64,000 bases of DNA from Shewanella sp. MTB7 (lineage in GTDB: Bacteria > Pseudomonadota > Gammaproteobacteria > Enterobacterales > Shewanellaceae). Made by a program: the position numbers and the translations under genes. A model generated the notes under the pieces. It was not told the origin of the DNA and made no database searches. It saw only the letters and a program-made list of their open reading frames with translations. The stretch spans positions 558,001 through 622,000 of the forward strand of contig NZ_CP085636.1 in NCBI RefSeq assembly GCF_027571385.1. Reading direction: 5' to 3'. Numbering within the stretch: the stretch's first letter is position 1; every line of letters begins with the position of its first letter. Shown one piece after another: positions 5,992 through 37,709 of this stretch.

Positions 5992-6028
5992 TCTCAGTAA
6001 AGTGAGCACTAGCTAAATATAATGGAAT

Positions 6029-6065
6029 AAGGGAATATCAATGATATTCCCTTATTTTTTCTTTT
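6029..6065 (+). terminator. Rho-independent terminator after ygiQ
   Basis: An 11-bp perfect stem (6029-6039 with 6043-6053) closes a 3-base loop and is followed by a T-rich run to about 6065. It separates ygiQ from the YkvA-type gene. Confidence 0.9.
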
Positions 6066-6083
6066 TCTGTTGCGGAGTCAGTG

Positions 6084-6431: not shown

Positions 6432-6457
6432 TTAAAACATTTAAATATACTGATTTT

Positions 6458-7399: not shown

Positions 7400-7489
7400 A
7401 GTGTTACTCCTGATTAATCGATTTGTTTTTCTATGCTAGGCAGTTTATTGTTATTTGATTCTTTGATAATTAATCAAAAAGTGAAATTA

Positions 7490-8404
7490 ATGTTCATAAA
7501 AAATGAACAAAGACGGTTGGCCTATCAGATGTTGGTGTTCGATGAGGTGATTAAGAAAGGCTCTTTTACGGCAGCGGCCGAGTCTTTAGGCCACACCAAG
7601 TCTGCAGTGAGCCAATACGTGAGCCAGCTAGAGGCTGCTCTCGGTGTGCGCCTGCTTAATCGCAGTACACGGCAGTTAAATTTGACTGTGGTTGGACAGC
7701 TACTAGCAAAACGAAGTGAGCAACTGCTCGATCTGCTGATGACAACCGTGGAAGAGGTTAAGTCCCATGAACTTGCGCCAGTGGGGCGTATTGCGATTAC
7801 GGCTCCTCATGCTTTTGAGTCGAGTTTAGTAACGCCAATCGTTGCTCAGCTTTGCTATGAGTATCCTAAGTTGGTACCAGAACTGGTGTTCAGTGATGAG
7901 CGGTTGGATCTGTTGCAAAATAACTTAGACATTGCCATCTCAGTGGGGCCGCAAAAAGACAGCGCTTATCACGCGATATTGATTGGCAAACTAGACAGTA
8001 TACTGGTGGCATCGTCCGCATACCTAGCAAGAAACAGCATCACTGGCCCATCGCTTAACTTACAACATCTGGTCGTTTTACCCTGGCAGCAGCAAGCCGT
8101 ACTGGAGAGTCGTCATGGTGGGAGTATTTTGTTTCATAGTGATAAACAGTTAAAGGTGAATACCTCAATTAGCGGGATCAATAGCGTCAAATGCGGTGTA
8201 GGAGTCGGCCTCATGCCCTCCATTTTTGTAGAAGATGACCTAGCTTCAGGACAACTGCAGAGAGTGTTACCAGATTATCAGGGAAAGATAAGAGATGTGT
8301 ATGCGCTTCACTCCTACCAACAGCAACTACCATTGGTGTTAAGACGATTTGTTGAACGATTAAAGATGGCGTTTGGTCGGGTGAGCGGTCTTGGAACGGG
8401 ATAA
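7490..8404 (+). CDS. LysR-family transcriptional regulator
   Basis: A 304-residue regulator with an N-terminal winged helix (VFDEVIKKGSFTAAAESLG, then SAVSQYVSQLEAALGVRLL). The substrate-binding domain is of the CrgA/DsdC-like short type, with LDIAISVG near the middle. I chose the ATG at 7490, giving a normal LysR length. An upstream ATG at 7433 would add 19 residues with no homology and no ribosome-binding site. It is divergent from the SnoaL/isochorismatase fusion and probably controls it and itself from the shared 90-bp region. The inducer is unknown. Confidence 0.85.
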   Translation: MFIKNEQRRLAYQMLVFDEVIKKGSFTAAAESLGHTKSAVSQYVSQLEAALGVRLLNRSTRQLNLTVVGQLLAKRSEQLLDLLMTTVEEVKSHELAPVGRIAITAPHAFESSLVTPIVAQLCYEYPKLVPELVFSDERLDLLQNNLDIAISVGPQKDSAYHAILIGKLDSILVASSAYLARNSITGPSLNLQHLVVLPWQQQAVLESRHGGSILFHSDKQLKVNTSISGINSVKCGVGVGLMPSIFVEDDLASGQLQRVLPDYQGKIRDVYALHSYQQQLPLVLRRFVERLKMAFGRVSGLGTG

Positions 8405-8477
8405 AAATATCTCCCACAGCTTAAGCTAAAATTTATCTGCTTATGGTAATGTTAATCACAAATCATCGGAGATAATA

Positions 8478-9062
8478 ATGAAAACAATAAAATACTCATA
8501 CATTGGTCTGCTAACGGCTTCATTTTTTAGCTTGCCAGCTTTGGCCGTTACCACCGAACAGGATGCTTTTTTCGATAACCTAGCTGCGCATTGTGGTAAA
8601 GCTTTCGAAGGCACTGTGATTGGTGGTACTTCGGCAGATTCAGCCTTCAGTGGTAAGAAGCTGATTATGCATGTTCGTGAATGCAGTGATAGCGAGCTTA
8701 AAGTGCCATTTCATGTGGGCGATGATCATTCTCGTACTTGGGTTATCACTAAGACTCAGCATGGTTTACACCTAGCCCATGATCATCGTCATCAAGATGG
8801 CACTGAAGATAAAGTGACCATGTACGGCGGTGTAACCGCAACCATGGGCAGTACAACGTCGCAATCGTTTCCTGTTGATGCCTATTCGATCAATAATTTC
8901 AGAGACAACGGCTTAGATGTGTCAGTCACTAACGTGTGGCATATGTACATTAAACCAGAGGAGTTTACCTATCGACTAACTCGTGATAATCGTGATTTTA
9001 GAGTAGATTTTGATCTCACCAAACCAGTAGCGCTACCACCGGTACCTTGGGGACATAAGTAA
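8478..9062 (+). CDS. Secreted protein of unknown function
   Basis: A 194-residue protein with a signal peptide cleaved near residue 23 (LPALA/VTTEQ) and a CGGAG-type ribosome-binding site. I do not recognise a named domain. The mature part has two cysteines (in AHCGKAFEG and VRECSDSEL) that could form a disulfide. It also has a histidine-rich loop (LHLAHDHRHQDG) and ends in PPVPWGHK. It is probably periplasmic. A 214-bp frameshifted copy of its middle third lies at 12895-13108, so the gene has taken part in a local duplication. Confidence 0.8.
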   Translation: MKTIKYSYIGLLTASFFSLPALAVTTEQDAFFDNLAAHCGKAFEGTVIGGTSADSAFSGKKLIMHVRECSDSELKVPFHVGDDHSRTWVITKTQHGLHLAHDHRHQDGTEDKVTMYGGVTATMGSTTSQSFPVDAYSINNFRDNGLDVSVTNVWHMYIKPEEFTYRLTRDNRDFRVDFDLTKPVALPPVPWGHK

Positions 9063-9625
9063 CTGCCTTTTAATGAAGGTTGATTATATTTTCTGGCGGA
9101 GTTTGATTTTGAAGAAATTTTTTAAGTCCTAGCTTAATCACATCTTTCATCTGTATCATATTTTTTGTTCAAACTTCGTCTGAAATTAACGCGGTGGTAT
9201 TCCATACACCTCGTTCAGAGAGGCCATACACATGACCTTCACCCATGCATCCCAGATCTTGACCTATATCCATGAGGGTCGCCATGATGGTCCTACAGTA
9301 TTTTTAACTACGTATTTCAGCATGTAAATCCATATATAAAGCCAGTTCAGCATATATGGCCCCATCCCGTTTGCAAGACATTTGATATCAATTTTGAGAA
9401 GAGTTCATTGCACCCATATATTCGGCCTGTTTATGAGGTTAACCTCTGGCCCTGATGGATATGTGCCTCTACTTTCCTTATCTCCCTGCGGCTTCTAAAG
9501 AGCCTATGCTGTCGTAAGGTTTTAAGTAGAGCAGTCTGACTGTCTCATCATCAAATCAAGTGTCGTAGCAACTTGGTGGTATGTTGTTTATGCTAACTCG
9601 GTTCGTTTTACTCTATGGCTACAAG
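9063..9625. other. Non-coding stretch downstream of the transposase, possible IS right end
   Basis: I see no convincing gene in these 560 bases. They lie 3' of the IS110/IS1111-type transposase. A perfect 8-bp inverted repeat (9330-9337 with 9352-9359, 14-base loop) and a smaller one near 9557-9575 show it could be structured. In IS1111-group elements the right-end non-coding region encodes the bridge RNA, so part of this stretch may be a bridge-RNA gene on the minus strand. That assignment is inference. Confidence 0.35.
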
Positions 9626-10730
9626 CTATACAAATGCCTTATATTCATCCTCTCTCGCTGCAATAACCCACGCCATTCGTGCAAGTTTATTGGCAACGGC
9701 AACACAAGCCTTATTAAATCCTCTTCTTTCTGCCAGAGCGAATGCCCAGCGGCTTAACCTGTCTTCTTTACCTCCGCTGTGCTGCAAGACCGCTCTTGCA
9801 CCATGTATAAACAATGTTCGTAAGTAAGCATTGCCTCTTTTGCTTATCCCTAACAGATTGTCTTTACCGCCACTACTATGTTGCTTTGGTACTAAGCCAC
9901 ACCAAGCAGAAAAGTGTCTACCATTGGTAAAATCTTTCCCCTCTCCAGCTGCAGCGTAAAAAGCGGTTGAAGTCACAGGACCAATACCAAGAATGGTTTC
10001 TAAACGCTGGCAGACTTGATTTGTTTTCATCTCCTCTAGCACTTGGGCATCGCAGCTTTTTAGCCGTTTCTCGATATCTATAAATTCCTCGTGCAGTTGG
10101 TTAAATATAAACCGCCCCTTCACTGTAAGTTCACTGCACTCATCAGATAAAATATCTGGAAAAGCCATCCTAAAAGCAGCCTTGCTTTTTGCTATCACAA
10201 TACCGTACTCAGCCAGCATGCCTCTAACTTGGTTAATTAAGGCGGTAGACTGCTTATTTAAACGTTCTCTCATGCGATGAAGCATCTGCACATCTTGTTG
10301 TTCAACAGGCTTTGGTTGCACGAAACGCATGTTAGGCCTTTGAGCTGCTTCAGCTATAGCTAATGCGTCGTTATAGTCGTTTTTATTACCTTGCCTGTAC
10401 GGAACAACATATTAAGGCGCGATTAGTTTCACTTGGTGACCTAGGCATTCAAACTCTCTAGCCCAGTAGTTAGCGCCACCACAAGCCTCCATTACAATAA
10501 GACACGGCTCTATCTTGGCAACAAACTGCAGAACATCTCTGCGTTTCAACATTTTCTTTTTAACTAACTTTCCTGCTTTATTTACGCCAACAAAATGAAA
10601 AACAGACTTTGCGATATCTAAACCAATTGTAGTAATCGTCATAGTGGACCCGTCCTCTTTCTGATGAGTTTTAGCAACTACATCGTGGCCCATTGCGAGG
10701 TCGATTAAAAGGGGATAGGTCCATTCCATT
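9250..10730 (-). mobile_element. IS110-family (IS1111-like) insertion sequence, inactive
   Basis: The body is a broken IS110-family transposase with long non-coding flanks. The ends are estimates. On the transposase strand, the upstream flank near 10710 contains GGACCTATCCCC. The plus strand near 9261 has GACCTATATCC, a possible imperfect subterminal inverted repeat (about 9 of 11 matches). IS110-type elements generally leave no target duplication, so the edges cannot be set from this sequence alone. Confidence 0.55.
9626..10642 (-). pseudogene. IS110-family transposase with an internal stop codon
   Basis: One frame of 338 codons is interrupted by a TAA at 10412-10414. The upstream part begins at the ATG at 10642 (TITTIGLDIAKSVFHFVG) and carries the RuvC-like DEDD residues (LDIAK, VMEACGG). 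After the stop the frame continues through GNKNDYNDALAIAEAA, the third acidic motif. It then has the C-terminal Tnp domain with GIGPVTSTAFYAA and the serine-containing block SAWCGLVPKQHSSGG. Reading continues in the same frame, so a single C-to-T change (CAA to TAA) explains the break. The KLIAP(Q)YVVPYRQGNKND layout suggests the IS1111 subgroup. Confidence 0.88.
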
Positions 10731-10905
10731 ATCCATGCTTCTCGTTTACAGGGTATAACTTTGGGAGCTGCATTAATTTGAATGTGGCATCCGTGAAATT
10801 TTCATCTATTTATTATCTGTTGAAAAAAGACTTAAATAGATTTTTATCTGGATGACTTTCTGGATAGAGTATTCGAACCTCTCTTTAAAATAGCGAATAT
10901 ACCGA

Positions 10906-12843
10906 ATGAAATATGGAAAGTACTTTATCTACTTACTACTGACCCTCTTTTTTTCGACCACAGACTTACTGGCCGACTCATCAGACCTATTGTTGACAAA
11001 GGATACTGAGTGGCGCTATTGGGCTAGTACAGAAACTGTAGCTGAAGGTTGGATGGCACCGGAGTTTAATGACAGCCTATGGCCAGTAGGAAAACCAGGC
11101 TTCGGTTATGGTGACGAAGATGACCAGACTATTCTGTCTGACATGCGTGGTCAATATTCCAAAGTCTACCTAAGAACTGGCATTGAGCTAACTGAAAAGC
11201 AAGCCTCTAACGTGTATAGATTAAGAGTGTTTATTGATGATGCCGCTAAAGTTTATCTCAATGGTGAGCTGATAGAAGCGTTTAATTATCACCGCGGAAA
11301 AGCTGTGGGATTAGCCGATGCTAAATTGTTTCAAAGTCGGATAAGCTTGAAAAGAGGTACCAACTTATTGGCTATCGAGGGGGATAATCATGCCCTAAAC
11401 AGTAGCGATTTAAGCCTAGAACCATGGCTTACAGATGATAATTTGCCAACAGCTTCATTTTTACGAATGCGCAATGAAATTCGGTTGAGCCGAGTTCAAG
11501 CCCTAGAAGATTTACGTTCATTGCAATACCTACTTGTTGATAAGGCAGCATATTTGACCTTGCGCAATGATGATGTGATATCACAATTAGAATCAGTCGC
11601 TCAAACATTCCCCACTGAATTGTCAAATATTAAGCTATTGGAGCGAATCAATCCAGTGCTCAACAGTATGGGAGATTGTCATTATTCTAGCTCTATTTCT
11701 CCTTATTCCATTGAAGTTAACAGGAATCTGCCTTTTCGTTTGGCAGACTCTGACCTTGGTGTGGTTGCATTGGATAAAGAAGGGGACAACCTATTGAGGC
11801 AAGATGCTCCTTTGCTTATGAGTATTGATGGTATTCCTTTAGATAAGTTACTTATGATTGCCGCTTCGATGTCAAAAGATTGCTCTTTGCAAGGGAAGAG
11901 ACGAAAGGCTATATCCAATCTTGCAGCATATTATCCTCTAATCAGGGCAAGGTTTGATTTTCCTGAAGCTGAGCTGATTAACATTGGGTTAGGGGATGGA
12001 GACAAAATAATAACAGAAGTGAAAGTGCGGAAGTCAGCAAGACCGTTGAGGGTTAAAAGAATTGCACTGGGGAAGAGCCGATATCTGAGTCATGGTGTGG
12101 CGTATCTGAGAATTAAAAAGATGGATAAGTCATTGTTAGCGGGAATTATTGCAAAGATGACTGAATATCAGAATAGTTCAGGGTTGATTATCGATATTCG
12201 TGGTAACGGCGGAGGTTCATATCATATCAGTGATGCATTGTTTGGCTATTTTCTGCCTCCCGGGCAGGCGGCTAAAGTTGTTAATGTCAGAGCCTATAAG
12301 TTATCACCGGATTTTAAACCCGGAATGCTGGATTATCGAAATGCTTATTTAATAGGTAGTGGCCCTAGAAGTGATGATGAGCACGCTGTTGTTAATCGGT
12401 TTGCAACGCAGTTTTCGCCTGTTTGGAGCGGGAGCGAGTCGCTGGGAAAACACTTTAGCCAATTGCATTACAAACTACTTGGTCGCAGTAAAGCCGTATC
12501 TCAATATTATTACTCTAAGCCAGTAGTATTGTTAACAGATGCAGGGTCAGGAAGCGCTGCTGATGGTTTTGCAAGCTTCTGGCAACAGCTTGATAATGTC
12601 ACTTTAATTGGTGAACCAAGCTATGGTAAAAGTGGCAGTTCTCGCAGATATACTTTACCCAATAGTAAATTGAAGTTGAGGTTTTCTGCAGCACTTTCTT
12701 TTAGAGATAATGGACAACTGATTGAGGGGCGAGGTATCGAAGTTGATATAGATAAACGGCCTACGATTAACGACATTACCTCTGGGTCCGATTCAGTTTT
12801 AGATTATGCAGTGAAATACTTACATCAACTCGGATCAAGCTGA
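10906..12843 (+). CDS. Secreted S41-family serine peptidase with N-terminal beta-sandwich domain
   Basis: A 645-residue protein with a signal peptide ending near residue 24. Residues about 30-175 look like a galactose-binding-type jelly roll (EFNDSLWPVGKPGFGYGD; RVFIDDAAKVYLNGELI). The C-terminal half is an S41 peptidase: GLIIDIRGNGGG, then Ser550 in AGSGSAADGF and Lys575 in EPSYGKSGSS, the expected Ser/Lys dyad. No PDZ domain is evident, so it is not a typical CtpA. It probably cleaves peptides in the periplasm or outside. It lies between the dead IS and a gene fragment, which suggests it arrived with a rearrangement. The ribosome-binding site is weak. Confidence 0.8.
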   Translation: MKYGKYFIYLLLTLFFSTTDLLADSSDLLLTKDTEWRYWASTETVAEGWMAPEFNDSLWPVGKPGFGYGDEDDQTILSDMRGQYSKVYLRTGIELTEKQASNVYRLRVFIDDAAKVYLNGELIEAFNYHRGKAVGLADAKLFQSRISLKRGTNLLAIEGDNHALNSSDLSLEPWLTDDNLPTASFLRMRNEIRLSRVQALEDLRSLQYLLVDKAAYLTLRNDDVISQLESVAQTFPTELSNIKLLERINPVLNSMGDCHYSSSISPYSIEVNRNLPFRLADSDLGVVALDKEGDNLLRQDAPLLMSIDGIPLDKLLMIAASMSKDCSLQGKRRKAISNLAAYYPLIRARFDFPEAELINIGLGDGDKIITEVKVRKSARPLRVKRIALGKSRYLSHGVAYLRIKKMDKSLLAGIIAKMTEYQNSSGLIIDIRGNGGGSYHISDALFGYFLPPGQAAKVVNVRAYKLSPDFKPGMLDYRNAYLIGSGPRSDDEHAVVNRFATQFSPVWSGSESLGKHFSQLHYKLLGRSKAVSQYYYSKPVVLLTDAGSGSAADGFASFWQQLDNVTLIGEPSYGKSGSSRRYTLPNSKLKLRFSAALSFRDNGQLIEGRGIEVDIDKRPTINDITSGSDSVLDYAVKYLHQLGSS

Positions 12844-27092: not shown

Positions 27093-27833
27093 TTATTTTG
27101 CAAAATAAGCTTCGTTAGTGCCGTATGGGCCTAAGTTTAGGTCACGCTTACGGATTTCATCAACGCGATCAAATGCTTCTTCAGCTACGCGTAGGTTTTT
27201 AACGTCTTTACGCCAGTAGTATTTAAAGCCGTTAAAGTGTGCGTTGTTCGGGTACCAGTACATCACACCTAAGCCTTTGTCAGACACAATAGGTGTGTTG
27301 TGGATCGTAGCACCAGGGATGTAGAAGTACTGGCCAGTGCCAAGCTTCTTGAACTGGTTATCGGCAAGTGTTTGACCTTCACCGTTTACTACGTAGTAGC
27401 ACTCAGGTTGACCATGGAAGTGCGGCGCGTGGTCTGATTTCCCACCGTCAGTGATGCCGATAACCATAGGGCTATCTGAAAGCTCTTTCCAAATATAACC
27501 AACAGGTGATTTTGATTTATCACAGTCTTGAATTTCTAGTACGTTACCGTCATCATCTAATGATTTACAAAATTGCTGATCGGCAGCGATACTGCTGTTT
27601 GATTTAATAGTGCTAAAGTCAATTTCACCCGCTTCCCAAGCTGCGATATACGCTTCAACTTCTGGGTTGCTACACTGCTCAGGCATGGTATTTTGTGGCG
27701 AATATGGTGTGCTGTCATATGGCACTGGCGTCATCTGTTGGTAGGGCAGTTGTGCGTGGTTACACTGTGGACCTTCTGCCATGACTGAAGTCGAAGCTAT
27801 CGCGGCAATCCCAAACATCATTTTTAGTTTCAT
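27093..27833 (-). CDS. Secreted cupin, DMSP-lyase-like (module A)
   Basis: A 246-residue exported cupin (signal peptide ends at SVMA/EGPQ). Motif 1 is His138-x-His140-x3-Glu144-x-Tyr146-x4-Gly and motif 2 is Gly-x5-Pro173-x4-His178. This set, with a Tyr two residues after the Glu, is what DMSP-lyase-like cupins use for metal binding and for the catalytic base. DddY is also periplasmic but much longer, so this is a relative rather than DddY. I infer a lyase that forms an enoate; the substrate is not shown. It has its own promoter region carrying an operator-like dyad shared with the flavoprotein operon at 32351. Confidence 0.72.
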   Translation of the reverse strand: MKLKMMFGIAAIASTSVMAEGPQCNHAQLPYQQMTPVPYDSTPYSPQNTMPEQCSNPEVEAYIAAWEAGEIDFSTIKSNSSIAADQQFCKSLDDDGNVLEIQDCDKSKSPVGYIWKELSDSPMVIGITDGGKSDHAPHFHGQPECYYVVNGEGQTLADNQFKKLGTGQYFYIPGATIHNTPIVSDKGLGVMYWYPNNAHFNGFKYYWRKDVKNLRVAEEAFDRVDEIRKRDLNLGPYGTNEAYFAK

Positions 27834-27971
27834 TACTCTCTTCCTATTAAAATCAAGCCCAGCTTAAAGCTGCCGTATTGTGCTTGTAATTATTTGCATG
27901 AACTAACAATAAAGAGATAATTACGCCGTAAAGTTGAATTGGATCACGCCGCGTTTTTATCAGCAAACTTA

Positions 27972-27991
27972 TTCGTGAACTTGGTCGCGAA
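27972..27991. promoter_or_regulatory. Operator-like dyad upstream of the module A cupin gene
   Basis: TTCGTGA-N6-TCGCGAA is an inverted repeat with 6 of 7 matched positions. The surrounding 35 bases closely match 32447-32466 and its flanks upstream of the module A flavoprotein. It is a candidate site for the TetR regulator at 32697. Confidence 0.6.
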
Positions 27992-28012
27992 TATTCTTTC
28001 CTTTGGTGTATT

Positions 28013-29086
28013 TTAAATGTGAAGTTGCAAGCTTAATTGGGCATAATTCGAGGCGCCTTGGACGGTTGAAACTGAGTCATAGGGCATAGGTTCATCATCT
28101 ATTTGATAACGACCTACTTCAAAACCAAGCGCTAAGGCCGGCGTTAAATTAGTGAATAAATTGACTCCGGCATGAAAGCGATCTGTCTGTTCGACATCAG
28201 TGACCGTACGTCCATAGAAAAAACTTGAGCGAGTGTGCGTCGACCAAAAGTGGCGGTAAGCAAACATCGCAGCGGTGGTGATTTCAACTTCACCATTAAT
28301 GATGTCTCTAGCAGCGTCGGTACCGACATAACGACCTAAATTTCCATGGTGCAATTGCAATCTAATATCATTCTTGCCAAAGGTGTTGAGTTTGGCTGCC
28401 AATGAAAAGCCTGTGCCAAGTTGTGTTGTTTCAGAAGGGTCTAAATAGCGAAATAGGCTGGATAGGGAAATATTACCCCAATCGCCTTGCTGGTTATAGC
28501 GAATGATAGCATCGGGGACGTAATCATTATTGGTATCGATCCATAACTTATCAGTGATTGTACTGCCTACTCTTGTGCCATAAGTGTAAGGGTTTTCTAG
28601 TGAGAGTTGCCAGTTGTCAGTGCTGTAGCGAACTAATGTTTGACGCACCATAGTTTGTCCGACTAAGGGGCCACCTAAATCTGCCGTTTCGGCAAAGGCG
28701 CTGGTATTGACCATTGTTGACCAAGTTTGTCCGGCGATAACGTCTTGATAACCGATATAAGCATGACGTAAGCGCGGACTATAGGAGTTAGAGAATATGG
28801 CATTGCCCTGTGTGGAACCTGTGAAGTCAATTTCGGCAAATCCTCTGACCTCACCGCGGGTTATTGCTATATTGAAGCGGCTTTCAGCTGCACTGAATTG
28901 GCTTCGTTTAGCGGATTCAGTGATGGTACCTCCACCGGTCCAACTGTCTTGATAGGCAATGTTACCGTCAACATAGCGAGCATTGGTTTTTAGGAAGCCA
29001 CCAAAGTGGTATTCCATTGCTGTTAGTGGTGATGAAAAGCCAGCAATAAAGCAAACACAAGTGGAGATTGTTGTTATCGATTTCAT
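28013..29086 (-). CDS. DcaP-like outer-membrane porin
   Basis: A 357-residue protein with a signal peptide (FSSPLTA/MEYHF). The mature start FGGFLKTNARY and the blocks RSQFSAAESRFNI, EVRGFAEIDFTG and LRHAYIGYQDVIAGQTWSTM are those of DcaP-type trimeric porins. Known DcaP proteins favour negatively charged and dicarboxylic solutes. It lies between a terminator on one side and the cupin gene on the other, within the respiratory module. I infer that it admits the module's substrate or releases its product. The C-terminus ends LQLHI, a little unusual for a barrel. Confidence 0.82.
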   Translation of the reverse strand: MKSITTISTCVCFIAGFSSPLTAMEYHFGGFLKTNARYVDGNIAYQDSWTGGGTITESAKRSQFSAAESRFNIAITRGEVRGFAEIDFTGSTQGNAIFSNSYSPRLRHAYIGYQDVIAGQTWSTMVNTSAFAETADLGGPLVGQTMVRQTLVRYSTDNWQLSLENPYTYGTRVGSTITDKLWIDTNNDYVPDAIIRYNQQGDWGNISLSSLFRYLDPSETTQLGTGFSLAAKLNTFGKNDIRLQLHHGNLGRYVGTDAARDIINGEVEITTAAMFAYRHFWSTHTRSSFFYGRTVTDVEQTDRFHAGVNLFTNLTPALALGFEVGRYQIDDEPMPYDSVSTVQGASNYAQLSLQLHI

Positions 29087-29112
29087 GGTTATTTCTTGTC
29101 GAGAGGAGAGAT

Positions 29113-29132
29113 AAAAAAGCCCTAAAAAGGGC
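29113..29132 (-). terminator. Terminator after the flavoprotein-cytochrome-porin operon
   Basis: On the minus strand GCCCT/AGGGC with a 4-base loop is followed by six T. A second, larger hairpin without a T run (about 29210-29243) lies between it and the porin stop. Confidence 0.85.
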
Positions 29133-29280
29133 GCGATCTATTGAGGGAATAGCAAGCAGGGGGCCGTTTTGTCCCCAAGCTGGGAGAATCTAAAACTATT
29201 TATAGCGTGGCAGAAGCAAGAGACTATGGTCTCGCTTCTGCCGGTAAACACTTTGCTTACTTCATCAATTGCGATTGTGG

Positions 29281-30411
29281 TTAGAAGTAGTAGCCAAAGT
29301 TAATGTTAACGCGCTTGTCCCAGCTGTCGCCCATTTCTGGAAGACCCACGTGGTCGTTGTTAGCGGTAGAGAACGTCATGTTCTTACCCATGACGAAATC
29401 GATCATGGTGTAAGTAGGACCTGCTGAAACGGCACAACCTGTTACGTTCTGTAAGCTGTTATCGTAGCTGTCGTCATCCACATCTGGTGTCATCAAGCCT
29501 AAGTCGTTATAACATTTCACACTGCCCCAATCGGTAACGAAAGTTCTAGCGAGGTTAAGGTTATAAGCTTGGCCTTTTGAGGCTATTTCATACTGCCAAC
29601 TAACAACCGATACGCCAATTTTGTTGGCATCTTCTGCGTCAGCCGCATTGTATTCATACTGCATAGCTTGCAGCTGTAGATTCCAGCCTTTATAGCTGCT
29701 ATCTAAATGTAAAGCGACGGCATAACGGTCACCATTATTGGCGGTTTTACTGTTATAAATTTGACCATACTGTACAGAACCGCCAAAGGTTGTTTGACCA
29801 CCTTCATGTGTGGCAGTATAAGTTTGGCGTAGGTTGAGCTGGTTGGTCTCTTCATTGAAATACTCAGTACCATTGATGGTACCTGTGTATATATCAGTTG
29901 AGTAACGCTTGTTCTCAGCAGCGCCATATTCAGCACTCTTGTAGAAGGCTAAATCTGTGTGCCAGCCATTCTTTTCGTAAACAGCTTTGATACCAGTATC
30001 ATGATCATCTTCGAAACCTAGGTAATAAGGGATGCCAAACCAGTAGCTGTTTGAGATGAAATCACGGTTACCAAATGGCACTTTGTTAATACCAACTTGC
30101 AGTTGCCAGTCAGGGTTAACATCGTAAAAGCCATAGCCATACTTAATGTAATTACTGCCTGAGGTAAAACGATATTCAGCCGCTAAGCCCCAATCGCCAT
30201 GCTTGCCATCAAACTTGATCGCAGCCATATCAAAGTTAAAGTCGCCGCCTTTATCTTTATTGGCTTTATCATAATCGCGGTAAGCGTAGTTAACGCGCAC
30301 TGCGCCGCCAATCTTAATACCATCTTCTTGCTCGGCAGCCATTGCTGTTGAGCCAGAAAGTGCAATTGCTGTAGCCACTATAGACAACATAAACTTAGTG
30401 GTTTTTTTCAT
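29281..30411 (-). CDS. Porin, OprP/phosphate-selective-like barrel (module A)
   Basis: A 376-residue outer-membrane protein with a signal peptide (ALSGSTAMA/AEQED). Its repeating strand pattern (FDGKHGDWGLAAEYRF, WQLQVGINKVPFG) resembles OprO/P-type porins, and the C-terminus is VNINFGYYF. I chose the ATG at 30411, eight bases after AGG; the ATG at 30417 is too close. It is the third gene of the operon after the flavoprotein and tetraheme cytochrome, with no terminator before it, so uptake of the electron acceptor is a reasonable inference. Confidence 0.82.
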   Translation of the reverse strand: MKKTTKFMLSIVATAIALSGSTAMAAEQEDGIKIGGAVRVNYAYRDYDKANKDKGGDFNFDMAAIKFDGKHGDWGLAAEYRFTSGSNYIKYGYGFYDVNPDWQLQVGINKVPFGNRDFISNSYWFGIPYYLGFEDDHDTGIKAVYEKNGWHTDLAFYKSAEYGAAENKRYSTDIYTGTINGTEYFNEETNQLNLRQTYTATHEGGQTTFGGSVQYGQIYNSKTANNGDRYAVALHLDSSYKGWNLQLQAMQYEYNAADAEDANKIGVSVVSWQYEIASKGQAYNLNLARTFVTDWGSVKCYNDLGLMTPDVDDDSYDNSLQNVTGCAVSAGPTYTMIDFVMGKNMTFSTANNDHVGLPEMGDSWDKRVNINFGYYF

Positions 30412-30459
30412 CGTCATTACCTATTCATATTTTATATTATTGAAAATAAACTAGCCTAA

Positions 30460-30828
30460 TTACATCACTTCAAACCAAGTGCGATGACACTCAGTACAAA
30501 CAGGGGCTTTTTTCTCGTGTTCGCCGTGACATGCTAGGCAACTTGCTCCTTGGTTGTAGTGCAACGACTTGTGAGGATGGGCTTCTGGAATCGCCAATTT
30601 ACTTTCGTCCACTGTTATGCTGTTGATGTCGCCATGACATTCAACGCATGCGGCGTCAGTTGCATTCTTTTTACCAGAACCTTGATGGCAAGTTTGGCAA
30701 CCATCTTGGTAGATAAATTCATGGTTTACACGCCCTTGGGTGCTACCTTTCATCTTAACTAGGTCACCGGCCATAACGCTGCCAGATACAGCAAGGCTAA
30801 GTAATGTGCTTAGTAATAACGTGTTCAT
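30460..30828 (-). CDS. Periplasmic tetraheme cytochrome c (module A)
   Basis: A 122-residue protein with a signal peptide (SGSVMA/GDL) and four CxxCH heme sites: CQTCH, CVECH, CLACH and CTECH. Its length and spacing match the small tetraheme domain that is fused to the flavin domain in Shewanella FccA. Here it is a separate protein, and its start codon overlaps the flavoprotein stop by one base (TAATG), so the two are translationally coupled. It should carry electrons from the CymA/quinol pool to the flavoprotein. Confidence 0.93.
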   Translation of the reverse strand: MNTLLLSTLLSLAVSGSVMAGDLVKMKGSTQGRVNHEFIYQDGCQTCHQGSGKKNATDAACVECHGDINSITVDESKLAIPEAHPHKSLHYNQGASCLACHGEHEKKAPVCTECHRTWFEVM

Positions 30829-32351
30829 TAAACGGCTCCTTGAAGATCGGCTTTAATGGTTTCAGCCACAACGATACCCATGGCTAGACACTCTAGGCAG
30901 GATGTAGAGCTCAAACGAGCCTCACCGTGTGTCCCTCCGGTGACTTCACCGATTGCATACAGGTTCTTGATTGGTTCCATTGAGCGACCATCAATCACGC
31001 GAGCGCCTAAATCCGTTTTTAGTCCACCCATGCAGTAATGCACTTTTGGCCAAATGCGCGAGACAACAAACGGGCCAGTTAGTACTTCGGCTGTATCCAT
31101 TTTACGGTTAAATAGTGGGTCTTTACGCTCTCTAACATGCTGGTTGTATTCAACAATGCTGCGCGATAATTCAGCTACTGGGATATCGAACTGGGTCGCT
31201 ATTGCATCTAGAGAGTCGAGCTTCCACGCCATCTTGTCTCTTAGAGCACGTACAACACGGTCGTCATTGGCATAGTTGTTATAATTAAAGAGTACGACTG
31301 GATAAGCTGGGCTACCATCGGCATTTCGGTTCTTCATGATGGCTTCAGAACAGGTCTTGCGGTCTGCACGCTCATCCATAAAACGTTTGCCGTTAAGTAC
31401 GTTAATCGCAACACCTTGGTGCCAGCCGATTGAAAGCAATGCGTTTGACCAACCGAATCCACCTTCATCTGGCGAACCCCAGTGACCTGTTTGGATTAGG
31501 TTCATGTGCACTGGCAGTGCACCATAAGCCATTGCTGTTAGCGTCACTTCACCCGTTGCGCCAAGGGCGTTAGTGCAATCTAATGTTGGATCAAGTGATG
31601 GGTCAACGATTTCTCGAAGCGCCATATTGCGAGCAAAACCGCCATTAGCTAAGATCACAGCCTTATTAGCTTTAATGAAAACGCTACTGCCTGTTTTTAG
31701 ATCTGGGAAACGATAATGCTTACGCACTTTTACACCGATGATCTTTTGACCATCCATGATGAAGTCTTCGATATAGTGCTGTAGACGGTAATCCACACCT
31801 TCCTTTACGCCTGCTTCATATAGCTTGGTGGTGATATCACCGCCGGTACCATGTTGGGTACGAATAGCACGAGCCTTGTTGTGCCCACCGACTTGAATGT
31901 TGAAACCGTCACGGAACTTAACGCCGGTGTCGATGCAAAGATGGTAAGCATCTAAAGCACGGTTAGCGATAAGACGCAACGAAGCCTCGTTGTGCATACC
32001 ACGACCAGAGATGATCTGATCTTTCACTAGCTCTTCAGGCGAGTCGTCATTGACACCTTGTGCTAATTGGATTGGGTTTTTAGGAATCGCTAACCATCCC
32101 CCGTTAATGGCTGAGTTACCACCAATCACTTGCATCTTTTCTAAAAGGAGTACTGATCCCACGTCTTTGCGTCTAGCATTTAGCGCTGCTGAAAGGCCGG
32201 CAAAGCCAGAACCTACGACAATGACATCGACGGTTTCATCCCAGTTAATCTCGCCACAAGTATTCGCTTGTACAGTTCCAGATAATGTGGCCGCCAAACT
32301 ACCAACAGCAGCTCCTGCGCTGAGTTTTAAAAAATTTCTTCTACTTTGCAT
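30828..32351 (-). CDS. Tat-exported fumarate-reductase-like flavoprotein (module A)
   Basis: A 507-residue protein with a Tat signal (SRRNFLKLSAGAAVG) and the FAD fingerprint VDVIVVGSGFAGLSAAL. NGKRFMDERADRK holds the likely catalytic acid Arg, and GEVTGGTHGEARL holds His475 and Arg479, the substrate-carboxylate ligands of the FccA/UrdA family. The pocket segment IQTGHWGSPDEGG keeps a His where module B has Pro. It lacks the N-terminal heme domain of FccA; the next gene supplies it. I chose the ATG at 32351, after GAGG; a TTG upstream would spoil the Tat signal. It is probably an enoate reductase used in anaerobic respiration. Confidence 0.88.
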   Translation of the reverse strand: MQSRRNFLKLSAGAAVGSLAATLSGTVQANTCGEINWDETVDVIVVGSGFAGLSAALNARRKDVGSVLLLEKMQVIGGNSAINGGWLAIPKNPIQLAQGVNDDSPEELVKDQIISGRGMHNEASLRLIANRALDAYHLCIDTGVKFRDGFNIQVGGHNKARAIRTQHGTGGDITTKLYEAGVKEGVDYRLQHYIEDFIMDGQKIIGVKVRKHYRFPDLKTGSSVFIKANKAVILANGGFARNMALREIVDPSLDPTLDCTNALGATGEVTLTAMAYGALPVHMNLIQTGHWGSPDEGGFGWSNALLSIGWHQGVAINVLNGKRFMDERADRKTCSEAIMKNRNADGSPAYPVVLFNYNNYANDDRVVRALRDKMAWKLDSLDAIATQFDIPVAELSRSIVEYNQHVRERKDPLFNRKMDTAEVLTGPFVVSRIWPKVHYCMGGLKTDLGARVIDGRSMEPIKNLYAIGEVTGGTHGEARLSSTSCLECLAMGIVVAETIKADLQGAV

Positions 32352-32446
32352 TCTGTGATCCTCAAAATGGGAATGAGGTAACGATAAACACAATTTCAAT
32401 GGCTAAAGGTGAACTGAGTCACGTCATTTTTTCAGTGACAAATTTA

Positions 32447-32466
32447 TTCGTGAGTTAGATCTCGAA
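32447..32466. promoter_or_regulatory. Operator-like dyad between flavoprotein A and its TetR regulator
   Basis: TTCGTGA-N6-TCTCGAA is an inverted repeat, 6 of 7 positions matched. It lies about 100 bases before the flavoprotein start, in the 345-base divergent region. The same sequence occurs upstream of the module A cupin gene (27972-27991). Confidence 0.6.
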
Positions 32467-32696
32467 GATCTTTTCTCACTAAAGGGGGTCGTATTGATTG
32501 GCAGCTAAGTGACGTGGCTAGGTTAATGTGAACCAAGATTCATTAGCGTTAATGTTTGCTTGTATGATGTTACTCACAAAGGTTACTAATAAAGCTGTAT
32601 TAGCGTGAACTTAATCCCGATTAGTGAAGTGAAACTATAATCAGCAATTGCAGACAGCGCATAATTGCCTAAATTTGTACAACCGACCTTTTATAG

Positions 32697-33482
32697 ATGA
32701 AATGCCCTACTGAAACATTGTCAATGCTACGCTGCAATCAAATACTTGATGCGGCGGAACGGCTGATTGAGACGCAAGGTATTGTGTCATTTAAGTTCTC
32801 ACAGTTGGCGAAAGAGGTGGGGTGTTCTACTGGTACGTTATATAAATTATTTGAACGTAAAGAAGATGTATTAGTCTGCTTGTTTTTACGCAGTGCGACC
32901 TCGAATCATCTGCGGATATTCATTGATAAATATCCAGATTTGACAGCCCAAGAAAAAGTACTCTTGCCGATATTGTTTACCTTTGAAACAATAAAACGCA
33001 GTAAGAGTTTTTTTACACTTCGCTCAGTGTCGGTTAATACCATGGTGTGGCAATTAGCCAGCGATGAAAAAGTGAACCGTTTTAAAAAGCGTATCAATGC
33101 TTTTTGGCAATGGTTTACAGACTCTCTTAATGAAGCTGTTGAAAATGGAGAATTAGAAGCCACGGAACTGCAAGTTAAAGAGCTGGTACAAGGATTCACC
33201 TTTTACCTAACGGGCTCGTTAACTCAATTCGAGAGTCAATTGATCGACACTAAATATCTAGGTGACAGACGAGAAACATGTTACCGACACTTAGCTAAGT
33301 TAATGGGACAATATAAATGGCGTAAACCGCTCACCCATGAGCTGTTTGATTCACTTGAGTCTCGCTCATCAAACTTTTTTGATAAACATTATCGTGATCA
33401 CATGTCTTGCGCTGCTTGTAGTGCATTGAGTTGCCAAACGACGACGGCTTGTTCGCGAAATAAGATCACAGCATTGCGCTAG
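32697..33482 (+). CDS. TetR-family regulator with cysteine-rich tail (module A)
   Basis: A 261-residue protein. The N-terminal HTH is canonical (RCNQILDAAERLIETQGIVS, then VGCSTGTLYKLFERKEDVL). The C-terminus carries Cys238, Cys241, Cys246 and Cys252 in a short tail. Cys3, 13, 43, 61, 238 and 241 fall at identical positions in the module B paralog, without gaps. Most TetR proteins lack such a tail, so it may bind a metal or Fe-S cluster or react with an electrophile such as acrylate. It is divergent from the flavoprotein operon, and the nearby dyads are its likely targets. Confidence 0.88.
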   Translation: MKCPTETLSMLRCNQILDAAERLIETQGIVSFKFSQLAKEVGCSTGTLYKLFERKEDVLVCLFLRSATSNHLRIFIDKYPDLTAQEKVLLPILFTFETIKRSKSFFTLRSVSVNTMVWQLASDEKVNRFKKRINAFWQWFTDSLNEAVENGELEATELQVKELVQGFTFYLTGSLTQFESQLIDTKYLGDRRETCYRHLAKLMGQYKWRKPLTHELFDSLESRSSNFFDKHYRDHMSCAACSALSCQTTTACSRNKITALR

Positions 33483-33595
33483 TGACTTGATAGAGTTAGC
33501 TTTGTTGTTACATTATTAAAATGAATACTAATATTCTATTTTAGGTCGGGTGAGATTAACTGTTAGCCATGAAGTTGGCCAACAGTTCGATCATG

Positions 33596-34066
33596 CTAAT
33601 GTTGATGTTGCTCTTCATCACAGGGTGTTTTTGACGCTAAATTTTGCACTGGATAGGCAACAGCCTCAATGCCTTTAATGTAATATCCCGTTTTCGCAAA
33701 CCCTGTTTGCTTACTTTTAACACTCAGAGTACCGGATATATAGATAGGTTGTTGTGGATTCGGTATCGCGATAGCGGTATCAAATTCAACATGAATTAAT
33801 TGGTTTTCAGGAGATGGGGGCTTGTGGAAGCAGGCACCTTGTTGTGGAGTCAATAAAAAATGGCGAGTCACCCCTTTTTTACCGTCTAATGGCACAACAA
33901 AGCCAGGAATAATGACATTTTTACCCTCTAGCTCCTTATTAATATTTGTCGCGACAGGTAACTCTGCAGGTCCTGGTGCTAAGTTGTTCCATAGGATAGG
34001 CATGCTCTCTTCGGCGAATAGGTTGGAACTAAAGAGTAAGCTAAGGGCCAGAATTGTTTTTTTCAT
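33596..34066 (-). CDS. DUF3299 family periplasmic protein (module B)
   Basis: A 156-residue protein with a signal peptide (LFSSNLFA/EES). GKNVIIPGFVVPLD followed by HFLLTPQQGACFHKPPSP is the DUF3299 signature, and the C-terminus is His-rich (CDEEQHQH). The family is exported and may bind a metal, but no function is established. I chose the ATG at 34066, which gives the clean signal peptide; the TTG at 34084 adds six residues. It follows the module B cupin by 57 bases and is probably the last gene of that operon. Confidence 0.8.
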   Translation of the reverse strand: MKKTILALSLLFSSNLFAEESMPILWNNLAPGPAELPVATNINKELEGKNVIIPGFVVPLDGKKGVTRHFLLTPQQGACFHKPPSPENQLIHVEFDTAIAIPNPQQPIYISGTLSVKSKQTGFAKTGYYIKGIEAVAYPVQNLASKTPCDEEQHQH

Positions 34067-34123
34067 GGTGAATGATGAAGCCAATTATTATTGGCCTCAC
34101 TCCTTGGGTTAGATTAAGTTTGT

Positions 34124-34861
34124 TTACTTAGATTTTTGAATAACGTCCCAACCGTAACCACCATTGCCTGAGCGCACGAGCTTAGAGTTGGTGTAAGGGA
34201 TGAAGTCAAACATCAACTGTTCACCTGGACCTACATCTTGTGGCCACTGGTACTTAAAGGTTGAGAACTTGCCATCGAGTGGGAACCAGTACATGTAGAT
34301 TAGGTCTTGATCATCAAATGTGTTTGGCGTGTAGTGCATTGCTTTACTTGGGATCTCAATATAATCGCCAGCGCCAAAAGGTTGCATACGCTCTTGAGCC
34401 CAAGTTAATCCAGCACCTGTTAGACCGTAATAACATTCCATTTCACGGTGATAATGTGGCGCAGCAGTACCCGGTGCCACACGTACCAAACCAATAACGG
34501 TAGGCTCATCGTTTAGCTCTTTCCAGCACATGCCCACTTCTGAATCACTGGCTCCGCCTTTTGGACAAGAGATAAGGTTACTTGGGTCATCGACGTTCCA
34601 GGTTAACCAACCTGAATCGTTCGCGCCTTTACCGCCGTGGTCGTTTGACTTAACAGTATAGATATCTTTGGCGCCAGACTGGAAGTCTTTGAGATAAGCC
34701 AGCGCCTGCTTTTGCTTACACACCATAGGCATAGCCTTAGTGGGTGCGTTAATGGTCGATAACGATGGCTGAGCATTGTGCCAAGGCTTATCGGCAGGTT
34801 TGTCACCTGCGGTAGCCATACCTGTTATCAGCATGGTTGACAAAAATAGTAGTTTTTTCAT
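34124..34861 (-). CDS. Secreted cupin, DMSP-lyase-like (module B)
   Basis: A 245-residue exported cupin (signal peptide ends ATA/GDKP), paralogous to the one at 27093. Motif 1 is His136-x-His138-x3-Glu142-x-Tyr144-x4-Gly and motif 2 is Gly-x5-Pro171-x4-His176. All metal ligands and the candidate catalytic Tyr are kept, while most of the rest has diverged from module A. I chose the ATG at 34861, which starts the signal peptide. It lies in one operon after the flavoprotein and cytochrome, 26 bases from the latter. I infer a periplasmic lyase that feeds the flavoprotein. Confidence 0.75.
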   Translation of the reverse strand: MKKLLFLSTMLITGMATAGDKPADKPWHNAQPSLSTINAPTKAMPMVCKQKQALAYLKDFQSGAKDIYTVKSNDHGGKGANDSGWLTWNVDDPSNLISCPKGGASDSEVGMCWKELNDEPTVIGLVRVAPGTAAPHYHREMECYYGLTGAGLTWAQERMQPFGAGDYIEIPSKAMHYTPNTFDDQDLIYMYWFPLDGKFSTFKYQWPQDVGPGEQLMFDFIPYTNSKLVRSGNGGYGWDVIQKSK

Positions 34862-34887
34862 CTTCTCATTCTCTTTATTAGTTGTTT

Positions 34888-35238
34888 TTAATTGAATTTG
34901 GGATAGTCGAAATTGTGACAATCCATACAGATAGCATGTTTTTTAGTGTGTTCACCATGGCATTCCATGCAAGGTGCTTCTTGGCCGTAATGCATGCTGT
35001 CATGGGGGTTTTGCTTAGCATCATGACCTTCGCGTTTGGTTTGATCCGCGAGTTTAGTCATGTCATGGCACTGCAAACAAGACTCATCAGATGGAAAGCT
35101 TTTTAGTCCTTGGTCGTGACAGGTTTTACAACCAGAGTCGTAGACCGTTTCGTGGTAATCACGTTTGTCTCGTGCCTGTGCTGAAAGAGCGATAAAGCCG
35201 CCTAGTGCTAGCACAAGTAAAGTAGTCATTGGTTTCAT
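34888..35238 (-). CDS. Periplasmic tetraheme cytochrome c (module B)
   Basis: A 116-residue protein with a signal peptide (ALSAQA/RDK) and four heme sites: CKTCH, CLQCH, CMECH and CMDCH. It is the paralog of the module A cytochrome. An AAGGAAA site precedes the ATG. It starts 10 bases after the flavoprotein stop and is followed by the cupin gene, so all are expected on one transcript. It is the presumed electron donor of the module B flavoprotein. Confidence 0.93.
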   Translation of the reverse strand: MKPMTTLLVLALGGFIALSAQARDKRDYHETVYDSGCKTCHDQGLKSFPSDESCLQCHDMTKLADQTKREGHDAKQNPHDSMHYGQEAPCMECHGEHTKKHAICMDCHNFDYPKFN

Positions 35239-35248
35239 ATTGGTTTCC

Positions 35249-36751
35249 TTATGCTTTCATCATCGAGCGTGCGGCTGTTACACCAAAGGCCATACAGTCT
35301 GGTGTTGAGCAACCACCAAGGCGGCTAACACCATGCACCCCGCCTGAGACTTCGCCGGCAGCATAAAGATTTGGGATCGGTTTACCATTTTTAGCTGCGA
35401 TGACTTCTGCTTTAGTGTTAATTTGGATACCACCTTGGCAGTAATGCACTTTTGGCCATAAACGTTGCACAATAAACGGAGCTGTCATATAAATACCTGT
35501 GCCCATATTCATACGCTTGCCAAACTGTGGGTCTTCTCCCGCTTTAACGTACTTGTTCCAGTCATCCACTTGTTTCTGAAATGGTTTTAGTGGCAGCTCA
35601 AAGTGTTTGGCAATGGCTTCAATGCTGTCAAACTCCCAAGCAACGTTGTAACGCAATACGTTATCCATCGATGGATCTTTCTGCGCTTCATGTTTAGGTG
35701 CAATCAAGAGTGCAGGATGTGGCTTGCCGTCTTTGTCACGACGTTGTATTTCTAAATCTGCGCGATGTTTACGGTCTGCAGTTTCATTCATAAACCGCTC
35801 ACCAGTATTACGGTCAATGGCGATAGAGTGAGGGAAGTTATACAGGGAGAAACCTGCTCCGTAACCAAAGCCACCTTCATCGGGAGATGCCCATGGACCC
35901 GATTGAATAAAGCTTAAATGAATCGGCATCGCCCCTTCGGCAAGCATGGCGATAAGGCCATCGCCGGTGGCACCGCGAGCATTGGTGTGACCTACTTCAT
36001 CGCCTAATGTTGGGTCGAGCGCCTGACGAAATGCGACGTTGGCTGCGAAGCCACCAGTAGCAATTAACACGCCTTTTTCGGCTCTTACATTAATGAGTGT
36101 TCCAGAATCTTCATGATCTGTTTGGTAATTCTTACGTACTTTAATTCCCAGTACAGTGCCATCTTCGGTGGTAATAAGGCCTTCAAATTTATGACGTGTC
36201 TTCGTCTTCACACCATAGCTCCGCGCTGTCTTGAGCATGGGGCGGATAAAGCCAGCACCGCTACGTTCTACGACTTGGTGACTACGGGTCACACTGGTAC
36301 CACCAGTATTAATAATATGATCGCGATAAACACAGCCACAATCTTTAGTGAGCTGGTATACATATGGTCCTAATTCAGCACTGTGTCTGAGTAATATCTC
36401 ACTGGCATAACCGCGACCGGAAGCAAGTTGATCTTGCACCATAAGATCGACGCTATCTTTGATACCGAGTTTTCTCTGCAGATCGGTATCGGCAAAACAA
36501 GCCTGGCCAGCATTGAGGGTACTGTTACCACCATAAACGCCCAACTTTTCAAATACGACGATATCTTTAGCGCCGAGCTTACCCGCTTCAACGGCAGCTG
36601 CAAGGCCAGCAAAGCCTGAACCAACGATAACCACTTCATGCTCTTCATCCCATATAACATCGGATGAATTGGCACTTACTGATAATGGGGCTAATGCACC
36701 AATGGCAGCAGCTCCAACCCCAAATTTTAAAAATGAACGTCTTGTTTGCAT
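35249..36751 (-). CDS. Tat-exported fumarate-reductase-like flavoprotein (module B)
   Basis: A 500-residue paralog of the module A flavoprotein. It has a Tat signal (TRRSFLKFGVGAAAIG), the FAD motif HEVVIVGSGFAGLAAAV, the acid-Arg region TGERFMNETADRK, and GEVSGGVHGVSRLGG with His473 and Arg477. The pocket segment reads IQSGPWASPDEGG, so the His of module A is Pro here, which points to a different substrate. SPDEGGFG is shared by both and may mark this subgroup. It is the first gene of the module B operon and is divergent from a TetR gene. Confidence 0.88.
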   Translation of the reverse strand: MQTRRSFLKFGVGAAAIGALAPLSVSANSSDVIWDEEHEVVIVGSGFAGLAAAVEAGKLGAKDIVVFEKLGVYGGNSTLNAGQACFADTDLQRKLGIKDSVDLMVQDQLASGRGYASEILLRHSAELGPYVYQLTKDCGCVYRDHIINTGGTSVTRSHQVVERSGAGFIRPMLKTARSYGVKTKTRHKFEGLITTEDGTVLGIKVRKNYQTDHEDSGTLINVRAEKGVLIATGGFAANVAFRQALDPTLGDEVGHTNARGATGDGLIAMLAEGAMPIHLSFIQSGPWASPDEGGFGYGAGFSLYNFPHSIAIDRNTGERFMNETADRKHRADLEIQRRDKDGKPHPALLIAPKHEAQKDPSMDNVLRYNVAWEFDSIEAIAKHFELPLKPFQKQVDDWNKYVKAGEDPQFGKRMNMGTGIYMTAPFIVQRLWPKVHYCQGGIQINTKAEVIAAKNGKPIPNLYAAGEVSGGVHGVSRLGGCSTPDCMAFGVTAARSMMKA

Positions 36752-36837
36752 ATTATTGTCTCCAATTAACTTGGAATAAGAATAGGCCTGTTACCAATGA
36801 CTAAATATGCTTGAAATCACACTTTGGATTTGGGGGT

Positions 36838-36871
36838 AAAGATTTTTGTGGACGTGTTCAAGAAAATCTTT
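36838..36871. promoter_or_regulatory. Inverted repeat upstream of the module B operon
   Basis: AAAGATTTT and AAAATCTTT form a perfect 9-bp inverted repeat with a 16-base spacer, midway between the flavoprotein and TetR genes. It is a candidate operator of the module B regulator and is unlike the module A dyad. Confidence 0.5.
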
Positions 36872-36938
36872 CTTTTAAGTATCTAATTATAAAAACCAGA
36901 ATTAGGATGATAGTTGAAATAATACTTGGGACTGACAT

Positions 36939-37709
36939 ATGAAGTGTCCGGCTACTAAATTTGATGCATTTCGATGTAACCAGCTATTAGATGTTGCAGA
37001 GGAACTTATTGATAATCATGGTGTTGTGTCATTCAGGTTTGCTCAGATAGCAAAGGGCGCAGAGTGTTCTACAAATACACTGTATAAATACTTTGAATCT
37101 AAAGAAGATGTTCTCATTTGTTTGTTTTTAAGAAACACAGCTTCAAGTCAAATCCCCATTTTTTTAGAAGATAACTCTAATCTAAATATTAATGAGCGTG
37201 CCGTTTTAGCTATTTTATTTACTTTTGAAATTGTGAAACGCAGCCCAATATTTAATATTCTTAGAGTTGTCTCCATTAATAGTATGTTTTGGCAATTGGC
37301 TAGTTCAGATAAAATTGAGATTTTAAGGCATCGTGTAAACCTATTTTGGAGTCGAATTAAACGGCCGTTAGAAGATGCCGTTTTAGCTGGAGAGCTACAG
37401 GCGAACGAGCAAGATATCCGCGATCTTAGTCAAGCATTGTACTTTTTCCTTGCTGGAGCGGCTTCATCTTATGAAAGTCGTTTGATGGAGGCTCAATATT
37501 TCATTGCTGATGATAACACTGGCTTTAGGCATATCAGTCGATTAATAAATCAATATCATTGGCGTAAGCCTATAACACAGGAGATGATGTTAAGCTTGTC
37601 ACTACGTATCAAGGTATTTCTCGATCATAGTAAAGGTAGGGTAGGCACTTGTGACACCTGTCTTGCTATAGGGAAACAGTCTGATTGCCATTCTCGATGT
37701 GGTGAATAG
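36939..37709 (+). CDS. TetR-family regulator with cysteine-rich tail (module B)
   Basis: A 256-residue paralog of the module A regulator, alignable without gaps for at least 241 residues. HTH: RCNQLLDVAEELIDNHGVVS, then AECSTNTLYKYFESKEDVL. The tail cysteines are Cys238, 241, 250 and 254. It is divergent from the module B flavoprotein. Since each module has its own copy and a different palindrome, the two probably answer to different but related signals. Confidence 0.88.
   Translation: MKCPATKFDAFRCNQLLDVAEELIDNHGVVSFRFAQIAKGAECSTNTLYKYFESKEDVLICLFLRNTASSQIPIFLEDNSNLNINERAVLAILFTFEIVKRSPIFNILRVVSINSMFWQLASSDKIEILRHRVNLFWSRIKRPLEDAVLAGELQANEQDIRDLSQALYFFLAGAASSYESRLMEAQYFIADDNTGFRHISRLINQYHWRKPITQEMMLSLSLRIKVFLDHSKGRVGTCDTCLAIGKQSDCHSRCGE

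Follow-up and report, generated by a model that had tools for sequence, protein, structure and literature searches.

Two paralogous periplasmic modules of Shewanella sp. MTB7 pair a DddK-like cupin with an enoate-reductase-like flavoprotein

The 64,000-nucleotide stretch analysed here (the window; Shewanella sp. MTB7, contig NZ_CP085636.1, positions 558,001 to 622,000) contains, at window positions 27093-37709, two complete paralogous gene sets, modules A and B, in which a secreted cupin resembling the dimethylsulfoniopropionate (DMSP) lyase DddK is encoded together with a flavoprotein carrying a leader for twin-arginine translocation (Tat), a tetraheme cytochrome and a TetR regulator. We regard it as probable that both modules are cassettes for the respiration of enoates supplied by a periplasmic lyase, each with a substrate of its own. 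A small carboxylate bearing a leaving group at the beta carbon would enter via porins and be bound by its carboxylate at the metal of the metal-dependent cupin, where the tyrosine of the HxHxxxExY motif would take the alpha proton, releasing an enoate in the periplasm. The flavoprotein, fed by its own tetraheme cytochrome, which in turn is probably supplied from the quinol pool, would then reduce the double bond of this enoate, used as the terminal electron acceptor. We infer the lyase chemistry, the direction of the reductase and the order of the steps from the genes, folds, residues, linkage and tree described below. The plan would be that of the cassette around the DMSP lyase DddY, with a DddK-like cupin in the DddY slot. 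A lyase feeding an enoate reductase is the best reading because the DddY locus of this genome is arranged alike, with DddY where the modules have a cupin, and because the reductase of that locus is 55% identical to that of module B, the A, B and DddY-linked reductases standing apart from the fumarate and urocanate types.

Layout of the modules and of the DddY locus

Every gene that an earlier note on this DNA had named is present at its place. Module A is transcribed from the minus strand in the order flavoprotein A (30828..32351), tetraheme cytochrome A (30460..30828; Cytochrom_c3_2, 2e-11), a porin with a weak Porin_4 match under the cut-off (29281..30417), a DcaP-like outer-membrane porin (28013..29086; PF19577, 28.9 bits against a cut-off of 27) and cupin A (27093..27833), with TetR A divergent on the plus strand (32697..33482; TetR_N, 5.2e-9). 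Module B, likewise on the minus strand, runs from flavoprotein B (35249..36751) via tetraheme cytochrome B (34888..35238) and cupin B (34124..34861) to a secreted DUF3299 protein (33596..34066; PF11736, 2.5e-27), with TetR B divergent on the plus strand (36939..37709; TetR_N, 8.3e-9). Twin-arginine leaders open both flavoproteins and each cytochrome holds four CxxCH motifs, while the probable true starts of flavoprotein A (32351, MQSRRNFLK), cupin B (34861) and the DUF3299 protein (34066) lie inside the listed open reading frames. Comparison of A with B by BLASTP returned identities of 37% for the cupins, 38% for the flavoproteins, 38% for the cytochromes and 45% for the TetR proteins; with four paralogous gene pairs, it is the whole unit that was duplicated rather than a single gene. 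The intergenic spacing suits an operon organisation of both modules, flavoprotein A and cytochrome A overlapping by 1 base and the gaps in module B measuring 10 and 26 bases. The closest named relatives are Shewanella, with cupin A being 87-93% identical in loci L002-L017.

A genuine DddY (414 amino acids, 2.8e-64 to PDB 5xkx) is encoded in the same genome, where dddY, a tetraheme cytochrome, a Tat flavoprotein and an acuI-like gene, the latter named by eye here and below, form one cluster (locus L055, G000:C1:5792000-5811000, at 6327-12214). Of 129 genomes of the genus, 55 hold DddY, and 17 of these 55 loci were read, 16 of them picked by hand from the other 54 across the identity range: cytochrome and flavoprotein accompany DddY in all 17, an acuI-like gene in 13, and a homologue of the Porin_4-like porin of module A in 10. 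The same kinds of parts thus make up modules A and B and the dddY cassette, which differ in the lyase slot. The DddY-linked reductases presumably correspond to the acrylate reductase ArdA/ArdAB. In locus L106 (3744-6341), two tandem DddY paralogues adjoin a single cytochrome-flavoprotein pair, the second paralogue being 44% identical to the DddY of the window genome. A dddY gene together with fccA, fccB and acuI in Shewanella sp. MR4 is given in the Figure 1 legend of PMC3338564. The idea that one compound serves as both carbon source and electron acceptor, also raised in the earlier note, found no support in the modules, as neither contains an enoate-assimilation gene and the acuI-like gene is found only in the DddY locus.

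Reductases and cupins

Both flavoproteins score well above the cut-off of 285 bits for the flavocytochrome c family TIGR01813 (516 bits for A, 536 for B). Identity to the DddY-linked flavoprotein reaches 55% for B and 42% for A, against 30-34% to four other flavocytochrome-type proteins of the genome, and cytochrome B is 54% identical to its counterpart in the DddY locus. In a tree of 81 flavoprotein rows, A, B and the DddY-linked type (Y) form one group (100/100), apart from the two fumarate-type and two urocanate-type proteins of the genome, labels that were assigned from heme motifs and sequence. Flavoprotein A represents a group of its own (98/99) outside B and Y, which join at 97/97; B is a subgroup while the Y rows (among them L045, which lacks a DddY link) do not resolve into a single clade, and flavoprotein B may hence have arisen among DddY-linked reductases. 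Neither the tree nor the consensus lines include flavoprotein reading frames shorter than 440 amino acids, which were truncated at a locus end or broken, and one reference row of the tree doubles L055. An example of a broken frame is L024 (6671-9616) of Shewanella marina, where module A looks broken: its TetR and flavoprotein genes are each divided over separate frames, while the cupin frame is open.

In this family the catalytic Arg, the His and the carboxylate-binding Arg have established roles, and in the fumarate reductase Fcc3 a further His and a Thr-Glu pair hold the second carboxylate of fumarate. A, B and Y all retain the catalytic Arg (in ADRK), the His of VHY and the carboxylate-binding Arg (RL); part of these residue roles is also given in PMC4427408. 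On the other hand, IQAHPT of the genome's L057 protein is replaced by IQSGPW in B and Y or IQTGHW in A, and VTEAV is lost in favor of residues other than Thr-Glu. With the second-carboxylate residues gone, the substrate would fit a mono-carboxylic enoate. The stretch aligned to GGMNAA of L057 is largely conserved by type (INGGLFAAP in Y, LNAGQACFA in B and INGGWLAIP in A), and the following Arg loop is also type-specific; we place the stretch, by alignment, in the putative substrate pocket. With such type-specific stretches, the three reductase types (A, B and Y) probably act on different enoates, and the pocket differences argue for several substrates across the modules. Plain fumarate or urocanate reductases were considered as an identity of the two flavoproteins and set aside, since pocket residues and tree both disagree.

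For both cupin models the top solved fold match is DddK, clearly for B and narrowly for A. The metal ligands and both catalytic tyrosines of DddK are present in all 69 aligned cupin rows, among which cupin C of locus L001 (see below) is entered twice. Within the genome, the HxHxxxExY....G motif is limited to the three module cupins among 13 Cupin_2 matches (E up to 0.001). The Pfam family DMSP_lyase (PF16867, cut-off 27) scores cupin B at 19.3 and cupin C at 18.4 bits, both below the cut-off, with none listed for A, a weak test considering that the genome's own DddY (21.6) also falls below. Quercetinase and sugar-isomerase cupins equal DddK in sequence score and come close behind it in fold. 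Membership of the cupins in the DddY family itself was rejected, hhalign returning a probability of 26% over 48 columns outside the metal motif. That the cupins are DMSP-lyase-like, as had been proposed from the window, is supported by the top rank of DddK among solved folds and by the conservation of its catalytic residues. Similarly, the notion of a cupin-released enoate respired by the flavoprotein agrees with the grouping of the flavoproteins with DddY-linked reductases, DMSP being a candidate substrate.

Distribution, separability and regulation

A scan of a genome collection recovered 53 cupin loci which, together with the genome's own module C locus, gave 66 cupin genes for examination. 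Within 6 kb of the cupin, a flavoprotein is found for 59, a cytochrome for 58 and a TetR gene for 61 of the 66, a count that can credit a B cupin with the flavoprotein of module A, as for L025, whose own flavoprotein is cut off. The chance level of flavoprotein linkage is about 2%, by arithmetic from ten full-length FAD_binding_2 matches in the window genome, a single contig of 6.37 Mb. Congruent with the linkage proposed from the window, cupin, flavoprotein and cytochrome recur together in Shewanella, Ferrimonas, Paraferrimonas and one record named Marinobacter nauticus, the flavoprotein of which is nearly that of Ferrimonas balearica; owing to relatedness, these cases do not count as independent. 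The refuting outcome named in the earlier note, an absence of linkage in other genomes, did not arise. An evenly drawn sample of the order, with at most 7 candidates scored per genome, showed the cupins in 11 of its 394 genomes and in 2 of its 114 genera. Among the 129 genomes of the genus, the cupin family is present in 51 (in one only as a fragment): 35 hold cupin and DddY, 16 the cupin only, 20 DddY only and 58 neither, a co-occurrence with a Fisher p of 1.7e-6, not corrected for relatedness. As the cupin-only genomes show, the modules are independent of DddY.

The seven cupins without a flavoprotein comprise L019 and L032 at contig ends, two of module C, L041, L043 and L044. In L041 a cytochrome homologue lies 9.4 kb from the cupin at the edge of the locus, and a flavoprotein may be present just outside. 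In L043 (9881-12401) from Falsirhodobacter sp. alg1, the cupin precedes an apparent alginate lyase gene and is near sugar-acid genes, as judged by eye, possibly a clue to a substrate. Module C is a third paralogue in the window genome (G000:C1, about 281-284 kb; L001 273000-292999, at 8180-11143), consisting of TetR, cupin C (about 283 kb) and another DUF3299 gene (5.6e-7); the 20 kb read around them contain no homologue of the flavoprotein or the cytochrome. The same triad is found in Shewanella hanedai (L054), hence cupin, TetR and DUF3299 can stand alone. Beside module C in the window genome lie genes of the M24 peptidase, arylmalonate-decarboxylase and M20 families, reminiscent of an ectoine-type set and considered, then set aside, as a hint to the substrate.

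Conversely, flavoprotein B and cytochrome B are found without cupin B in five loci (L002, L014, L015, L016 and L020). In two Ferrimonas loci, L045 and L046, a cupin that the cupin tree (built from 26 of 54 loci and the window, with a long-branch warning) places on the A side is combined with a flavoprotein that is placed beside the B group (98/99), an apparent partner exchange between cassettes. Although linked, lyase and reductase can be separated, which would be expected if enoate can also arrive from outside. Elsewhere in the window genome, a 558-residue ammonia-lyase-like protein with an apparent signal sequence is encoded directly before a urocanate-reductase-like flavoprotein (L060, G000:C1:365000-383000, at 5913-9502), perhaps another lyase-reductase pair, named by eye.

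The TetR family is cysteine-rich: among the 57 rows (score above 150, 235-300 amino acids, TetR C of L001 at 8180-8962 entered twice), Cys3 and Cys61 are present in all and the C-terminal CxxC (238, 241) in 56, all being conserved in TetR A. Our guess is that the cysteines may form a thiol sensor of electrophilic enoates, or else a metal or Fe-S site. Upstream of flavoprotein A, on the minus strand, lie a GTGA-N6-TCAC site, CRP- or operator-like (32408..32423), and a CRP-like site with 1 mismatch, TGTGAGTAACATCATA (32563..32578); the exact core of the former is found in 25 and 1-mismatch sites like the latter in 23 of 32 module A intergenic regions, as raw counts without a shuffle control. A weak CRP-like site with 2 mismatches, likewise without a control, precedes flavoprotein B (36806..36821, minus strand). 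CRP controls anaerobic respiration in Shewanella. For FNR, no position recurs as the CRP-like one does, neither comparison having a shuffle control. A DUF3299 gene lies no more than 6 kb from the cupin in all 19 loci with cupin B and in both loci with cupin C, and this adjacency suggests a helper that would supply metal to the cupin. According to PMC9817125, DUF3299 corresponds to ZrgE of a zinc-uptake operon in Vibrio parahaemolyticus, elevated 76-fold under zinc shortage.

Alternative readings and known systems

As a special case of lyase-fed respiration, the cupins could be strict lyases of DMSP or dimethylsulfoxonium propionate (DMSOP), making A and B further cassettes for acrylate respiration. 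The active-site identity with DddK including two cage residues, the 97/97 joining of flavoprotein B to the DddY-linked ones, possibly from among them, and the co-occurrence of cupin modules and DddY in 35 of 129 genomes all favor this narrower role, which we nevertheless judge unlikely: the different pocket stretches of the A, B and Y reductases, if correctly positioned, are hard to square with one substrate, DddY is absent from 16 of the 51 genomes with a cupin, and the reductase is missing beside the cupin in module C and at three further loci. Moreover, module A is also found in S. xiamenensis (L018) and S. decolorationis (L022), species not known to be strictly marine.

It is also conceivable, albeit doubtful, that the cupin is another metal enzyme, an isomerase, dehydratase, decarboxylase or dioxygenase, preparing or removing the substrate or product of the reductase. 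The quercetinase and sugar-isomerase cupins that rival DddK in sequence score and approach it in fold would agree with this, as would the position of the Falsirhodobacter cupin before what by eye is an alginate lyase gene, and the occurrence among the fold matches of KdgF, a uronate cupin. However, DddK is the top fold for both models, its second catalytic tyrosine and two cage aromatics are conserved, a lyase occupies the corresponding slot of the DddY cassette, and an oxygenase beside an anaerobic reductase would make little sense. Finally, the reductase might detoxify acrylate-like electrophiles rather than terminate a respiratory chain, a role that PMC4427408 proposes for reductases beside DddY and for which the conserved TetR cysteines could provide the sensor. 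We consider this improbable, as the dedicated tetraheme cytochrome of each module points to an electron-transport chain, and the CRP-like sites upstream of many module A operons, counted without a control, fit anaerobic regulation in Shewanella.

Taking lyase-fed enoate respiration further, one may tentatively envisage an interchangeable cassette, a possibility to which we give rather less than even weight: a fixed core of porin, tetraheme cytochrome and Tat enoate reductase would accept different lyases in one slot (DddY, or DddK-like cupins of types A, B and D), matched by reductases of differing specialisation, so that several environmental compounds would be split and respired in the periplasm, with TetR sensing the released electrophilic enoate and DUF3299 supplying the cupin metal. 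For DddY, the combination of a periplasmic DMSP lyase with a neighbouring flavocytochrome has already been described (PMC4427408 and PMC3338564). The principle is therefore known for DddY, and what is new is the DddK-like periplasmic cupin family, the differing reductase pockets, the cysteine-rich TetR family and the DUF3299 partner; a literature search aimed at such a cassette or its reductase recovered PMC3338564 and PMC4427408, with no mention of a cupin among the further papers listed, which does not show the cassettes to be unpublished. If correct, anaerobic respiration on periplasmic lyase products would be a wider scheme rather than a peculiarity of DMSP and DddY, with DddK-like chemistry brought to the periplasm and further lyase substrates of Shewanella-type bacteria remaining to be found. 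Furthermore, it would offer testable roles for a DUF3299 protein outside zinc uptake and for the cysteine-rich TetR family, and would provide candidates for the enzymes that turn over organosulfur compounds or betaines in anoxic sediments.

Compared with established systems, the module flavoproteins share TIGR01813 and the catalytic Arg, His and carboxylate Arg with the flavocytochrome c fumarate reductase Fcc3 and with urocanate reductase, but their second-carboxylate residues are replaced and they form a separate tree group. The methacrylate redox system Mrd/Mcc of Geobacter sulfurreducens AM-1 similarly has a separate exported flavoprotein and tetraheme cytochrome, and reduces a mono-enoate; unlike in the modules, no cupin is mentioned for Mrd/Mcc in the excerpted account of that system. 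With DddK of Pelagibacter the module cupins have in common the metal ligands, Tyr64, Tyr122, Trp110 and Phe117, whereas they are secreted, about 100 residues longer, approximately 22-28% identical over the barrel, equipped with invariant Cys48 and Cys143 (B numbering) and linked to a reductase, their lyase activity being predicted. A close parallel in design is the dddY-fccAB-acuI cluster of Shewanella, which likewise brings together an exported lyase, a tetraheme cytochrome and a flavoprotein closely related to those of the modules, often with the same kind of porin. The modules differ in omitting acuI, in their divergent cysteine-rich TetR, DUF3299 and other reductase pocket residues, and in the lyase slot itself, where a 245-residue DddK-like cupin, with no detectable profile similarity to the 414-residue DddY, takes its place.

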